From contig JAFSTC010000058.1 in the NCBI GenBank assembly GCA_017450705.1, positions 1 to 64,000 on the forward strand: a stretch of 64,000 bases of DNA, given 5' to 3'. This stretch comes from Lentisphaeria bacterium (GTDB lineage Bacteria; Verrucomicrobiota; Lentisphaeria; Victivallales; Victivallaceae). A program made the position numbers and the translations under genes. Below, in pieces: positions 3,809-40,120 of the stretch. A model generated the notes under the pieces. The model was not told the DNA's origin. It searched no databases and saw only the letters and a program-made list of their open reading frames with translations. Numbering within the stretch: the first letter of the stretch is position 1; every line of letters begins with the position of its first letter.

Positions 3809-6800
3809 ATGAGAAAGTTTTTATTCCTCCTTTTTTTCATCGTCCCGGGGGCGCTTGCCGCCGCAGAAGGTCTGCCCGAGCCGGGGCAGATCTTCCACCC
3901 GCGTGAAGATCTGCTCGCCGTCGCCGGTTTCGAAACGGAAAAAGCAAGCAAAGAAGAACTGGCAAAATATGCCCGCTTCGGCTTCGCCCTTTCCGAGGGA
4001 CGGAAGCTGAAACACTGGAAGCTCCGCCTCTCCGGGAATCCGAAAAACACGGCGGGCTCCCTTGCCTGCGGCGAAAAGTTCTGCAGCATGGTCCAAAAGG
4101 GAAATCTGTGGGGCAGCGCCTTCCTCGCCCTCGACGCCGCCATCCCCGCACAGGCTCTGCGGCAGAAGGAACATACCCTCGGCATCTGGGCGAAGGGCAG
4201 CGGGACTCTCTCGCTGGAACTGGAGGAATACCGCGGCGGCAAAAAGGCCGCCTCCCGGAAATTCCGCTATCTCGTCACGGAAACCCCGCAGTTCCTGCGG
4301 ACAAAGCCCCTGTCCCTCAAGGATCCGAAAACCGACTCTCTCAAGCTCAACATCGCCGTTTACGGAGACATCGAATTCGGCAAACCTGAGCTCTCCCCGG
4401 TCACGCCCGTCGATCCCGCCGCGGAGATGGTCTTTTACGTTCCCTTCGACGGAGGCTCGGCGGAGGCGCTGTTTTCGAGGGGGCCGACCGGCGTTTTCGG
4501 GACCGCCGAACCCGGACCGGCTGTTCCGGGGGTCGCGGGAGAAGCCTTCCGCATCGACGGGAAACGGCGCATGACGCCGCTTGGGATACTCCGTCTGCCC
4601 ATGGGACTGCAGTACAGCCACCCCGGCCGGGCGCTCACGAGGGAGAGCGGAACGCTGGAGTTCTGGTTCCGTCCGCTGCCGGAGATGCTGACGAAAAAGA
4701 GATGGGAGCCTTTCCCGCTTTTTTCGATCGGGACCCGCACGTGGATGTGGCCCGACAGCGAAGACTTTTCCCTGTGTCTTGCCAAAAGCGGCGGCAAACT
4801 GCGTTTCGAGTACAGGGAGCACGTCCGCCTGCGGCGGTGGCCCGATGGCGCGCCGGTCAAGACGGCGGGAAGCCCCTGCGCAGAGAAGAAAAGCAGTCAC
4901 ATCATCGCCGACAAAAAGGGCTTCATCGGCCGCTGGCACCATCTGGCCTTTACCTGGGCGCCGGAGCGCCGCCGCGTGTTTCTCGACGGTCAGCCCGTCA
5001 TGACGGTGGAAGCGAAAAAGGATCCCTGCGTCTCCGCGCCGGATCCCTCGCTGTACCTGGGATGCGCGGCACTGAACCAGCCATTCACGGCCTCCGGCGA
5101 TTTCGATGAACTCAAAATCTATAAAAACGTCCGGTACAGGGGAGCCTTTTCGCCCCGGGTCGAACCGCCCCGCTTCGAGCGGTTTCCGCGAGAGGGGAAA
5201 AGCGCCGTTCCGGAGGGAACGGACGCCGCCGCTTTCGACTGGGGCGACGGCGACGGAAAATACCGGCTCGAAATAAAATTGCGGGACGGGGCTCCGCTGA
5301 TCTATTCCTCGCGCGGCGCGGCCAATACCGTGCTCGCGGAGAGCACTCCCGGGTGCCCCGTCCTGACGCCCACTGCGGTCGAACGCGCCTCCGACCGCCG
5401 GAAGATGAAGTTCCAAACCCGCGACGTTCGAATGGACTGCCGCGTCCGGAGAGATCCCGGGAAGATGCGGATCACCGTCACGCTGAACAAGGGGGACGCG
5501 CCGGAGCGGGTCTGGCTGGAGCAGGAGATCACGCTCCGCAATCTCTCCCGGGCGTGGCACACCGCCTGCGACGGCTTCACATCCCGCCCCCTGCTGAAAC
5601 CTTTCCGGGGCTTCTCATACGACGATCTGCAGACGGCTCTTCCCCTCGTCGGCGCGTGGAACGATCACACGGGCGTCGCGCTGGCCCTGACGCCGGGCAA
5701 TCTCGTCTCGCGGCTTTCGCGGGGCATGGAGTCCCCAGATTCCCTGACGCTGAAACTGCGGACCGTGCTGGACGCGGGTGACACGGTGACATGGGATTTC
5801 GAAGTCTTTCCCTTTGCCGCCCGGTACGGGATCACCGCCCTGATCGACCGCTATCACGCAAACCATCCGGAATATTTCGCCTTTTCGGGCGTCGATCCGC
5901 GCATCTGCGCCAACGCGGCGCAGACCAACGTCTGGAATTCGGCTGTTTTCCGCAAGCGGAGCAGGACCTTTTCCCTTTCCGAGATCAACCGCCGCATCCG
6001 GGGGAGATGGTGCTGGTACTACTGGACGGGAGCCGCCACGGGGAACTGGAGCGTCGACCCGGAACTTCTGAAAGAGTTCCCCCCGCTCAACGAACCGCGG
6101 GTGGGAGACGCGTTCTATCACGAAGCCTTCCGGAAAAATCTCCGGCGGGAACTCCGCAATCTTCAGGACATGGGCGTCACGCCGTCACTTTACATTTCGA
6201 GCTGGGCCGAGAAGCGTCTGGTCCCGGCCTACCGGGATTCCCTGGTCGAACCGGAGGAGACCCCCAACGGCGTCGCCTCGTGGAAAAACTACTGGACACA
6301 GGGCGTCACCGACTTCATCATGTTCCCGAGCGGCGTCCGTTACGGCGCCTTTCTGCGGCGTCAGGCAGGCCGCATGCTCCGGCAGTACCCGGGCACGTGC
6401 AGTTTTTCCCACGATCTTTTCGGCGGGGATCATTATTTCCGCAAGGAAACGACTCTCGGCGGGATGCGGGCTTTCGACGAACGGGGCGTTTACACCCACA
6501 ATCTGCCGGCCATGGGCAAGTTCGTCGACGATCTCAAAAAAATGAGATCGGCCAGCCCCTTCAAAACGGCGCTCGTCAGCAACGGCCACGCGCAGACGGG
6601 CAGTTTCAACACCTTTTTCCGGGCCGACAACAACATCCATGAGCGGCCCCTCACCTGGACGCTTCAGGACTGGGGCAATCTTGCCGCCCACGCAAGGATG
6701 ATGGGCGAAAAACCGACGACCTTCTTCAACATGCCGTCGCACTTGGGAAACTATATCTCAGCAGAAACGGACGACATCGAACTCGTCCGCTACGCCATGA

Positions 6801-7933
6801 TCTTCGAACAGCACAGTCAGCTCCTCTTCGGGATGCTGTTCAACATCAACCAGAACTGGTCGATCCTCGGCGTCGCGGAGAGCATCCCCATGATCGATCA
6901 GCTGCTGTACGTCCACGCGCTCGGCCACAGGCAGACGCCGGGATTTTCCGGGAACAGGTCTCTGGCGCGTGTCCGCTACGGCTCCCCCCGGTCGGGGGCT
7001 CTGGTGCTGATCAACTTTTCTCCTGAAAACCGCTCTTCGGCGATCCGGCCCGACACGGCATATCTGGGAAGCGTCCCCCTCCTGTGCGCGGAAGAGAGGA
7101 CTCTGGAAGTCCGGGAGTCCGCCGTGAACGACATTCCCGTCGCGCCCCTCTCGTGGCGGATCGTCGAGATGGCGGCCGCGGCGCAGACGGCGGAGGATCT
7201 GAGTTACGACGCCCGCATGACGAAATGCCGCGCGGGCAGAAAAATGACTTTCGACTTCAAAAAAGACGCGGGAGCGTTGCGGCTCGTCATTGGTCTGCGG
7301 GCCCACGAGCGCTTCATTTCCGTCACGCTCAACGGGAAAGAACTGCCGGTACGCCGGGAGGGAAAAGACATTCTGGTCGAAACGCCCGCACTCGCGGCGG
7401 GGGACAGACTGGAGATCGCGACGGCGGACTCCCGCTGGCTGATGCCCGTGGAAAAACTCGGGAAAATATCTTTTCTGAGCGGCAGGATCATCGCTCCGCC
7501 GGAACTTGAGAACTGCGGGAAGAGGATCGTCGAGTTCTTCCGTTTCTGGGGCGTCAATCAGACCCCTGAGCGGAAATTCGATCTGCAGACGGCCGCAAGT
7601 CCCGCGAAAGACGGCCTGGTCGAACTGAAAAAGTCGTCCCGTACCGGCATCTCCTTCGAAGACGGGCGGATCGTCATTTCCGCCCCGGACGACCGCGCCG
7701 TCATGGATCTGACCGAGGAGTTCCTCGCCGCATTGGAAAAGCATTACCCCTATGTCGGGCTCTTCGGCAATCAGATGCCGGTCTACGACTGGGACTACGC
7801 GCCGATGTCGGCCCAGCGGAAGCTGATAAAACGCGCGGGCCTGACGCGCAAGCGGCAGTCGGCCGGGGACGCGGCAAAGACCTTCGACCGGTGGCTGAAA
7901 AAGAACGGGATCCGGACCGGTCAGGGCTTCTAA
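3809..7933 (+). CDS. Giant secreted LamG-domain protein, putative glycosidase
   Basis: The 1374-residue protein begins with a clear signal peptide (RKFLFLLFFIVPGALAAAEG). Residues around 210-450 look like a LamG / concanavalin A-like domain (FYVPFDGG, LEFWFRPLP, HHLAFTWAPERRRVFLDGQP, FDELKIYKN). The centre, about residues 640-1080, has a TIM-barrel feel, with PSLYISSWAEKR, CSFSHDLFGGDHYF and a DYWG-less WNSAVF segment, followed by beta-rich C-terminal modules. It resembles large uncharacterised glycoside-hydrolase-like proteins of Lentisphaerae and Planctomycetes. I cannot assign a CAZy family or catalytic pair. It is the last gene of the WbsX-pseudopilin operon; nine bases separate it from the pseudopilin stop. 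A secreted polysaccharide-degrading role is inference. Confidence 0.7.
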   Translation: MRKFLFLLFFIVPGALAAAEGLPEPGQIFHPREDLLAVAGFETEKASKEELAKYARFGFALSEGRKLKHWKLRLSGNPKNTAGSLACGEKFCSMVQKGNLWGSAFLALDAAIPAQALRQKEHTLGIWAKGSGTLSLELEEYRGGKKAASRKFRYLVTETPQFLRTKPLSLKDPKTDSLKLNIAVYGDIEFGKPELSPVTPVDPAAEMVFYVPFDGGSAEALFSRGPTGVFGTAEPGPAVPGVAGEAFRIDGKRRMTPLGILRLPMGLQYSHPGRALTRESGTLEFWFRPLPEMLTKKRWEPFPLFSIGTRTWMWPDSEDFSLCLAKSGGKLRFEYREHVRLRRWPDGAPVKTAGSPCAEKKSSHIIADKKGFIGRWHHLAFTWAPERRRVFLDGQPVMTVEAKKDPCVSAPDPSLYLGCAALNQPFTASGDFDELKIYKNVRYRGAFSPRVEPPRFERFPREGKSAVPEGTDAAAFDWGDGDGKYRLEIKLRDGAPLIYSSRGAANTVLAESTPGCPVLTPTAVERASDRRKMKFQTRDVRMDCRVRRDPGKMRITVTLNKGDAPERVWLEQEITLRNLSRAWHTACDGFTSRPLLKPFRGFSYDDLQTALPLVGAWNDHTGVALALTPGNLVSRLSRGMESPDSLTLKLRTVLDAGDTVTWDFEVFPFAARYGITALIDRYHANHPEYFAFSGVDPRICANAAQTNVWNSAVFRKRSRTFSLSEINRRIRGRWCWYYWTGAATGNWSVDPELLKEFPPLNEPRVGDAFYHEAFRKNLRRELRNLQDMGVTPSLYISSWAEKRLVPAYRDSLVEPEETPNGVASWKNYWTQGVTDFIMFPSGVRYGAFLRRQAGRMLRQYPGTCSFSHDLFGGDHYFRKETTLGGMRAFDERGVYTHNLPAMGKFVDDLKKMRSASPFKTALVSNGHAQTGSFNTFFRADNNIHERPLTWTLQDWGNLAAHARMMGEKPTTFFNMPSHLGNYISAETDDIELVRYAMIFEQHSQLLFGMLFNINQNWSILGVAESIPMIDQLLYVHALGHRQTPGFSGNRSLARVRYGSPRSGALVLINFSPENRSSAIRPDTAYLGSVPLLCAEERTLEVRESAVNDIPVAPLSWRIVEMAAAAQTAEDLSYDARMTKCRAGRKMTFDFKKDAGALRLVIGLRAHERFISVTLNGKELPVRREGKDILVETPALAAGDRLEIATADSRWLMPVEKLGKISFLSGRIIAPPELENCGKRIVEFFRFWGVNQTPERKFDLQTAASPAKDGLVELKKSSRTGISFEDGRIVISAPDDRAVMDLTEEFLAALEKHYPYVGLFGNQMPVYDWDYAPMSAQRKLIKRAGLTRKRQSAGDAAKTFDRWLKKNGIRTGQGF

Positions 7934-7984
7934 CTTCCGCATGTCTCCCCCAAATATCCCGCTTTTCTTGAAAAGGGAGAGGGC

Positions 7985-8039
7985 CCGGGAGAGGGGAAAA
8001 CTTCTTTTCACGCGGAAAAGAAGTTTTCCCCTCTCCCGG
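7985..8039. terminator. 24-bp perfect hairpin between convergent genes
   Basis: Arms 7985-8008 and 8016-8039 are perfect reverse complements around a 7-base loop. It lies between the giant LamG gene (+) and the PocR-AraC gene (-), where a bidirectional terminator is expected. Each arm ends in a run of four T or A at the loop side rather than a trailing T-tract, so it may instead be a mobile palindromic repeat serving as terminator. Confidence 0.6.
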
Positions 8040-8063
8040 AACTATCTTCCCCTTGCAAAAAAC

Positions 8064-8960
8064 TCACGGCTTGGCGCGGCAGGTGCGGGGGGAGCGGCCG
8101 GTTTCGGCTTTGAAGGCGCGGTTGAACTGGGAGATGGAGCCGAAGCCCGCGGCGCAGGCGATCTCGGCGACGGGGAGGGTCGTTTCGGCCAGCATGTTCC
8201 GGGCGCGGATGATGCGGCACATCGTGAGGTAGCGGTGAAAGGGCACGTGGACTTCGCGGCTGAAGAGGTGGGCCAGGTAGTCGGGGCTCAGGTAAAATCT
8301 CCGGGCGGTCTCCTCGATGGTCAGGGGGGACGTGCAGTTGGCTTCCACGTATTTCCTGATCTCCTCGATGCGGTCGGGCGCGTCGATCTTCTCCATGAGG
8401 ATGAGGTTTTCCCGGATGCCGGTCAGGTGGCGGCCGATGATCTCGAGGTATCCCGTCACGCCCTCGGCCTGAAGCCGGGTAAGCGTGATGGAGTCCCGGT
8501 AGAAGCGCCAGAGCGTCTCCGGGTCGAGGCCGTACTGCCGGGCGAGAGAAGTCACTTTCTTCCGGGAGAAGAGGGGCTTGCCGTCCAGATGGAACTGGCC
8601 GGAGGTCATGGCGCCGATGTATTCGCCGCGGCTGTCGAAGAGAGGCACGAGGATCTCGTACAGGCCAGCCCAGCAGGCGTAGCACATGGGCGTCCGCCGT
8701 TTTGCGGCCTCTTCGGCGTGCTCCATGTCGCACCGGCCGCAGGCGGCGCGGCCCTCGGGGGTCCCGCGCAGGGCGGCGCAGCAGGGGTTGAAGTTGGCCC
8801 CGCGGGAGATGCGCAGCGTTTCGCCATCGGCGGAAATGAAGTCGATCACCAGCCCCAGCAGCTGGAAGATGATCCGGGAATACTCCTGAAGCTGTTTCTC
8901 GCTTCCCAGCCGAGAAAAGGCCTGAGCCGTGATGGTGTTGTGCCGGTGAATACTGGCCAT
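8064..8960 (-). CDS. AraC-family regulator with PocR sensory domain
   Basis: The 298-residue protein carries an N-terminal PocR-type ligand domain with its Cys-rich core (NPCCAALRGTPEGRAACGRC, then CYACWAGLYEILVP and a GAMTSGQFHLDG strand). The C-terminal 100 residues are an AraC HTH pair (ARRFYLSPDYLAHLFSREVH and CAAGFGSISQFNRAFKAETG). The start has a textbook GGAAGGAGG five bases upstream. It is divergent from the five-gene M24/PTE/lyase operon starting at 9155 and is its likely regulator. PocR domains are known to sense small hydroxylated compounds (1,2-propanediol in Salmonella); rhamnose breakdown makes propanediol, so that link to the neighbouring lyase is attractive but unproven. Confidence 0.9.
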   Translation of the reverse strand: MASIHRHNTITAQAFSRLGSEKQLQEYSRIIFQLLGLVIDFISADGETLRISRGANFNPCCAALRGTPEGRAACGRCDMEHAEEAAKRRTPMCYACWAGLYEILVPLFDSRGEYIGAMTSGQFHLDGKPLFSRKKVTSLARQYGLDPETLWRFYRDSITLTRLQAEGVTGYLEIIGRHLTGIRENLILMEKIDAPDRIEEIRKYVEANCTSPLTIEETARRFYLSPDYLAHLFSREVHVPFHRYLTMCRIIRARNMLAETTLPVAEIACAAGFGSISQFNRAFKAETGRSPRTCRAKP

Positions 8961-39325: not shown

Positions 39326-40120
39326 ATGAGCTTTCCCGAAAAACTGCCGGAAGCGGCCGCCGGAAACACCGTCGAAAGTCTGCCGCAGGGGCGTCCCGCC
39401 CCCTTCACGCTGATAGAGCTCCTCGTCGTCATCGCGATCATCGCCATTCTCGCCGCGATGCTGATGCCCGCGCTGCAGCAGGCACGGCAGACGGCGGCCA
39501 GGGCGTCCTGTCAGAGCAACGAGAAATCCATGGGGGCGATGTTCAGCATATACGAGAGCCAGAACGGCCGTCTTCCGCCTTCGCAGTGGAACTTGGACAC
39601 CACGGAGACGACCAAGAACTGGGGCTGGTATCACTTTCTGTACAGAAAGAAAAATATGGACGGCGGCAGCAATCTGTGGAGTTCCCGCCGCAGCGACTGG
39701 ACGGCCATGCACTGTCCCGGCGCAAAGCCCAACCTCAACCCCGCAAGACCGGAAGCCAACTACTGGGCCGTCCGCCAGAGCCTGGGGCTCCTCAAGGCGG
39801 ACGGAACATGGAAGTACAGCGGCGCGGCGACCCGCCCCCTGATGGGCATGCTGATCCGCAGCGTGAGGCCCATGTCCAAGACGCTCCTCGTCACGGACTT
39901 TTACTATAAGAGCACGTTCGCCGACAATGCCGTGGAAAATTTCTCGTGCAGGACCGAACCGTGGAAGTCCGGCGAATCCAACTTCAAGGATTGCGGCGAC
40001 AAGGATATCAACGCCAACCATGTGACGGGGGCGAACCACCTCTTTGCCGACGGCCATGTGGAGCTGCTGAACAACAAGGTGATCCCCAAATACGTGAGAA
40101 ACTACTGGTCGAATTATTGA
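39326..40120 (+). CDS. Prepilin-type pseudopilin, tandem copy A
   Basis: The 264-residue protein has a leader of about 30 residues and [20 protein letters not shown], then [19 protein letters not shown]. The C-terminus has [16 protein letters not shown], an exact H-X9-DG. ATG at 39326 is chosen because GGAGG lies five bases upstream; an in-frame ATG at 39314 overlaps the ribosome site itself. It is a close duplicate of the next gene: both share the GAATGGAGGTGCGTATGAG-like start region, the LPQG segment in the leader, [15 protein letters not shown] and [20 protein letters not shown]. It belongs to the LacI-linked operon. Confidence 0.92.

Follow-up and report, generated by a model that had tools for sequence, protein, structure and literature searches.

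A hairpin-forming repeat of Lentisphaeria and its in-frame copies in the pilin leaders of related genomes

A perfect palindrome in the DNA of a Lentisphaeria bacterium is the core of an interspersed repeat of about 100 nt and not a chance palindrome, and in relatives of this bacterium the same repeat is found in frame in the leaders of pilin genes, directly upstream of the prepilin motif. The window analysed here is a stretch of 64,000 nucleotides (contig JAFSTC010000058.1, positions 1 to 64,000); its genome is labelled G000. The explanation that we consider probable, taken as a whole, is that the palindrome of the window represents one copy of an interspersed repeat that is non-autonomous and forms hairpins, and that this repeat has become a leader cassette in the pilin motif, one that would be tolerated through removal by a peptidase and would spread by recombination.

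The palindrome of the window and its repeat family

On the plus strand, the left arm of the palindrome (7985–8009) is the exact reverse complement of the right arm (8015–8039), with the 5-nt loop ACGCG (8010–8014, assigned to neither strand) between them. The earlier note on this DNA had described the palindrome as perfect, which it is, with arms of 24 bp, which are in fact 25 bp long. The whole copy of the repeat covers 7952–8051, both ends being approximate, on the plus strand, the orientation in which it is read in the pilin leaders of relatives. It includes a small 5′ hairpin with a CTTTTCTTGAAAAG core (7959–7983, plus strand), which is part of the minimum free energy fold and is conserved in other copies. 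Folded as RNA, 7959–8048 reaches −56.9 kcal/mol; 200 shuffles average −29.8 (sd 3.5), and none is as good as the real sequence (z −7.8). Rfam returns 19 matches for the window repeat, all of them to microRNA hairpin models and all below the gathering scores. The basic peptides to which the note had drawn attention are present: the plus frame through 7959 reads PLFLKRERARERGKLLFTRKRSFPLSRN.

Copies of the repeat are numerous in G000, where a search for further copies had been proposed. A 95-base query gives at least 78 match rows (40 of 85 first-look candidates scored), and the arm pattern, at up to three mismatches, occurs 68 + 69 times compared with 7 + 5 for the reversed control; it is because of these matches and this excess that we do not attribute the palindrome to chance. 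The window copy (7959–8051) aligns to copy L002 and 26 other own-genome copies (alignment A1), and the sequence to the left of 7959 also resembles that of other copies. Among the 27 own-genome copies aligned, 12 of the 26 consensus pairs show compensatory change, and in 21 of the 27 two or more plus frames stay open across an 84-nt core, so the repeat is by itself permissive to translation. By DNA search, with at most 11 candidates scored per genome, the repeat is found in 22 of the 34 genomes of the genus and, at the family level, in 28 of 78 genomes and 5 of 19 genera. These are draft genomes in which the repeat is often close to contig ends, so the counts are probably lower bounds. On G000 contigs C7, C10, C30, C35, C46 and C98, arm copies lie within about 150 bases of the contig starts; the repeat therefore probably breaks assemblies and is undercounted.

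In the window, the repeat is flanked upstream by a plus-strand gene for a 1374-aa protein with a Laminin_G_3 domain (3809–7933), which ends before it, and downstream by a convergent minus-strand gene encoding a PocR sensory domain and an AraC-type helix-turn-helix (8064–8960); the start codons of both are our choice. The palindrome lies between the two genes and is part of neither. The context of 26 G000 copies was taken from a codon-usage gene call: 25 are intergenic (11 convergent, 12 tandem and 2 divergent) and 1 is ambiguous. This call replaced an ORF-based count, set aside as ambiguous in a GC-rich genome, that had put 15 of the 26 'inside' an ORF. The convergent position in the window, and the preponderance of convergent over divergent copies, would suit an ordinary 3′-end hairpin—a two-way transcription stop or a stabiliser of mRNA—with the pilin copies a separate accident. 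However, the window copy has no T-run: a search of 7850–8150 for a terminator-like site with a T-run found none, in agreement with the note's remark that no T-tract follows the stem. The settings in which the repeat occurs in relatives, described below, also speak against such a hairpin, and we regard this reading as improbable.

The size of the repeat, its palindromic form and its rarity between divergent genes are likewise reminiscent of REP/REPIN-type repeats moved by a Y1 (RAYT) transposase, and REP/BIME and REPIN elements resemble it in forming many intergenic palindromes per genome. Y1_Tnp matches are found in 11 of the 34 genus genomes (10 of them over the cut-off), including one each in the copy-rich G038 and G039. 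Yet the copy-rich G000, G033, G045, G052 and G053, all incomplete assemblies, give no Y1_Tnp match. The GTAG/CGTC tag at the foot of REP hairpins (PMC3733652) is present in none of the 14 copies with a stem perfect over at least 18 bp; in the other 13 the computed foot was placed within the stem or at a hairpin elsewhere, and the single tag among all 27 copies lies at a different hairpin. Lacking the tag and a consistently linked Y1 gene, and having coding copies in relatives, the repeat differs from REP/BIME and REPIN elements, and we consider movement of this type very improbable.

In-frame copies at the prepilin motif

The earlier note had stated, without verification, that basic peptides like those encoded here precede FTLIELLVV in some pseudopilins of the phylum, and had suggested that the palindrome might be a mobile repeat that also inserts into pilin leaders. 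With translated queries this link is real in relatives, in which the repeat stands in frame directly upstream of the pilin motif, but it does not extend to the window's own genome: pilin leaders containing the palindrome exist in relatives and are absent among the G000 leaders read (0 of 137). These 137 come from 150 pilin motifs scored in G000, and no element was seen in the leaders at 20 loci and of five pilins of the window (one gene counted twice, one strand read). The G000 matches listed from translated searches have the element without a pilin; with two of the three matches of one search and one of the two of another outside those listed, these searches alone are insufficient for G000. 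The pseudopilin repertoire of G000 is very large, with at least 150 matches to the pilin N-terminal motif (150 of 170 candidates scored). Upstream of one of its pilins (L414) an oppositely oriented copy of the repeat lies within 450 bases, outside the leader, and neighbouring pilin genes of the window, at 39404 and 40220, share an unusual leader (MEVRMSF.EK...) that is free of the repeat.

Of the other 33 genus genomes, at least 16 contain pilin genes in which the repeat immediately precedes the prepilin motif as an in-frame fusion; so does G166, a genome from another family. A protein query joining the translation of the element to the pilin motif gives full-length matches in many congeners, and at E ≤ 1e-12 matches 19 of 197 genomes of the class: 17 congeners, G166 and G000. 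For 15 of the 17 matching congeners the matches listed span element and motif over their full or nearly full length; G041, the sixteenth congener, has such matches in a separate translated search, and the only in-leader match of G054 has a TAA inside. G166, an assembly with 6% contamination, has two matches, and its in-leader copies (L337 and L338) are similar to those of the genus; they represent either recent transfer or contamination.

Seven genomes (G033, G036, G038, G039, G050, G052 and G053) have both in-leader copies and non-pilin copies, the latter defined by no pilin motif within 1.5 kb; one locus, L067, was set aside since the element is not visible in the stretch displayed. The same left hairpin, palindrome and left flank recur in intergenic and pilin settings. 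It is this identity across the two settings, and their coexistence in seven genomes, that weighs against the 3′-end hairpin with accidental pilin copies.

A near-complete census of pilins was made for G032 only, leaders being nearly complete for G000 as well. The element stands directly upstream of the last motif in 32 of the 81 G032 pilin genes (an earlier count of 33 of 82 motif occurrences included one gene twice), and another module is present somewhere in the leader in 13 of the 81. Among the 33 motif occurrences that are filled, 21 have an uninterrupted reading frame beginning at a start codon ahead of the first FTLIELLV, 10 extend past the end of the fetched stretch, and 2 are broken by a stop, which counts against our explanation. 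When the pilin cassette itself was used as the query, 28 of the 30 G032 loci fetched (from 40 scored places) continue into an in-frame motif and the other 2 are on short or contig-end stretches; several of the 30 are two matches in one gene (L230/L250, L235/L245, L236/L252). At L256 a stop follows 16 codons past the motif. In two G032 pilins (L225/L229 and L226/L244) the repeat is frame-shifted with a TGA upstream; there, a 12-residue leader (VKKSFPLSPAHS) could begin at a GTG in the loop of the palindrome.

A filled gene consists of the start, a short leader, FTLIELLV, the insert and a restored prepilin motif. The insert splits the mature pilin motif at about codons 7/8 (FTLIELL / VVIAII) and ends in its own re-coded FTLIELL, so that the motif is present twice; by sequence, the start codon and leader of the recipient are kept upstream. 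The 3′ half of the insert is the repeat plus its left flank (CAAAATACCCCGC in some loci). The palindrome is used in two frames in pilin leaders, GERENFFSREKKF and GERGKTSFPVKRSF, and there are three types of module: in the first the palindrome is read as GERENFFSREKKFSLSPAHS, in the second it is read in another frame as GERGKTSFPVKRSFSPLPKSA, and the third is a different module of short hairpins that ends in HTAEPCFIRSA. They occur singly or stacked, longer variants exist too, and L230 has three stacked inserts with FTLIELLV after each. L115 and L117 have no upstream FTLIELLV, and the duplication is thus absent in some filled genes. A second in-frame leader module (HHTCKASASCLPQANASCSNAALHTAEPCFIRSA and variants) is found at L299, L300, L302, L303, L304 and L306; its short hairpins are split by GCTTCA, and the last of them includes the FTLIE codons.

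Empty orthologs, junctions and proposed spread

Among ortholog candidates chosen by similarity of the mature part (63–87%), four pilins filled in G032 are empty in sister species (L107/L208, L103/L207, L102/L211 and L104/L216); other relatives that lack the insert are L209 and L210 (for L107) and L217 and L218 (for L103). Upstream sequence is similar in all four pairs and downstream sequence in three; the L107 pair has no downstream similarity over the roughly 200 bases compared. In two ortholog pairs, L115/L214 and L120/L215, both members are filled. The other module is present in L212, which is related to L102, and the weaker relatives L223 and L224 are themselves filled; L213 starts too late to be judged. 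Empty and filled orthologs with similar flanks, together with near-identity of copies across species, lend indirect support to the word 'mobile' in the earlier proposal.

The junctions are informative about where the insert ends. Between G032 loci, the left FTLIELL differs by a pairwise mean of 0.274 and 0.265 (two types) and the right FTLIELL by 0.136 and 0.167, while the value is 0.239 for FTLIELL in G032 pilins without insert; for the 42 nt after the right motif it is 0.243 and 0.201 in filled genes and 0.215 in those without insert. The right copy is less diverse than the left copy, the uninserted motif and the next 42 nt, so the right FTLIE(LL) comes with the insert, and these comparisons place the switch from insert to recipient sequence near the second leucine. 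Left and right copies of one locus differ at 4.74 of 21 positions versus 5.28 for random pairs (p 0.029), a likeness that lies mainly in codons 6–7 (p 0.011; 23 pairs).

A simple target-site duplication was rejected, as left and right FTLIELL differ at about 4.7 of 21 bases, little below the 5.3 of random pairs, and no MITE-type duplication is evident by eye in the few flanks displayed, where the ends of the element are uncertain. The junctions fit recombination across the FTLIELL codons better than a duplication made by a transposase, the evidence for recombination-driven spread being one test, the likeness of left and right copies in 23 pairs. One 86-nt in-pilin form is 96.5–100% identical across nine species, a value that describes this form only and is based on one copy per species, picked by the form's ends; the mature pilin DNA of seven ortholog pairs is 69–85% identical. 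The identity of the 86-nt form covers silent positions, so selection on the peptide is by itself an insufficient explanation, and the simplest reading of the comparison would be recent movement of this form between species.

In sister species, a version of the repeat makes up the 3′ half of an in-frame leader cassette between FTLIELL and VVIAII. In our explanation, two features would make the insert tolerable: the repeat frequently leaves at least two plus frames open, and cleavage by prepilin peptidase ahead of the final FTLIEL would yield an unaltered mature pilin. Recombination across the FTLIELL codons that pilin genes have in common would carry the cassette from one to another of the dozens of pilin genes, and from species to species. 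Counting against this explanation are the 137 G000 leaders free of the element, the missing link to a transposase, the stop at L256, the two ortholog pairs with both members filled and the poor fit of the two motif copies to a simple target-site duplication. Six genomes have one prepilin peptidase domain each, and in both filled proteins examined (2 of 2) the match to TIGR02532, above cut-off, begins right after the insert, at residues 53 and 83. The residue before the F is often S, A or H and not G in filled leaders, which are 62–204 residues long, their translation and cleavage being predictions.

Known systems and other palindromes at the same codons

In-frame palindromic repeats are reported from Rickettsia and among some enterobacterial repeats, in various genes (PMC10969869, PMC2229807). 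Rickettsia palindromic elements, hairpin repeats of about 100–150 bp that lie both between genes and in frame within protein genes (same sources), are the closest known system. The likeness is by description, and the phyla differ. Here, too, a hairpin repeat of similar size is dispersed in many copies, and in relatives it is inserted in frame in conserved protein genes that have orthologs free of it, though none of the 137 G000 leaders has it. Whereas the Rickettsia elements are reported from many unrelated genes, every in-frame copy read here lies at a single motif of a single gene family; moreover, the insert brings with it a re-coded version of the motif that it interrupts, prepilin peptidase would remove the peptide it encodes, and its palindrome is read in two frames. 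The YPAL/RU-2 repeat of Yersinia forms part of an export signal peptide in the YPO1552 fusion, the one such locus singled out in PMC2229807, whereas dozens of copies per genome lie here at the pilin cleavage motif.

Inteins are also in-frame inserts in conserved motifs that are removed after translation. In contrast to them, the present insert would involve no self-splicing: the host peptidase would remove it, and no ligation would be needed, because the insert is in the leader. A literature search, with most subscription journals outside its coverage, yielded no description that we recognised of palindromic repeats in Lentisphaerota pilins. What appears to be new is the concentration on one motif, the re-coding of that motif and the likely removal by prepilin peptidase.

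With dozens of copies per genome at one motif and empty sites in sister species, insertion, choice of frame and tolerance become statistically tractable. If the explanation is true, it hints at a broader principle: in leader peptides that a host peptidase cuts away, mobile DNA finds a haven for in-frame insertion. It would likewise account for very long, odd pilin leaders that could otherwise be taken for real signal sequences or wrong gene starts.

Palindromes other than the repeat also occur at the motif. Counting perfect palindromes with arms of at least 8 whose right arm runs into the FTL codons, we find one in 23 of 48 element-free G032 pilins (0.15 expected from shuffles) and in 8 of 19 pilins at loci of named Lentisphaeria (0.04 expected), compared with none of 63 pilins from other phyla. 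Of the nine element-free congener pilins fetched, six have such a palindrome (L207–L210, L212 and L216) and three do not (L211, L217 and L218). Either a shared mechanism or selection for a hairpin may lie behind these palindromes. On the latter reading, the leader structure is selected, as opposed to being a selfish insert: the pilin mRNA (or DNA) benefits from a hairpin close to its start, for example one that slows translation or sets pilin levels, and the repeat was recruited as the supplier of that hairpin. The covariation of the repeat arms described above agrees with this, as does the finding that, at one and the same position, the related pilins L107, L208 and L209 carry palindromes that differ in sequence. 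However, about 25 of the 81 G032 pilins have neither the repeat nor another palindrome, only 1 of 137 own-genome pilins has such a palindrome (L377), repeat copies also lie away from pilins, and serial stacks of inserts such as that of L230 look accumulative, not tuned. We consider a selected leader structure unlikely, albeit the strongest competitor of a cassette tolerated in a removable leader.

A bolder form of the cassette explanation, possible in our view but doubtful, would have a selfish element specialised to a single post-translational safe haven, which enters the pilin motif, re-codes it and has its peptide removed by the host's prepilin peptidase, along with a hairpin-recognising machinery in gut Lentisphaeria that adds palindromes at pilin motifs. 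On this view, which draws on the many further palindromes at these codons, the machinery would recognise hairpin shape and not sequence. Palindromes at the FTL codons are found, among others, at L207 (1090), L208 (1054), L209 (1021), L216 (982), L307, L310 and L320. The sole own-genome case, L377 (C49:12154-12726), is a perfect palindrome with an arm of 16 at the motif. Their sequence differs between most loci, and they are often chained to a second palindrome (TTCAC ... GTGAA ... TTCAC; +,-,+).
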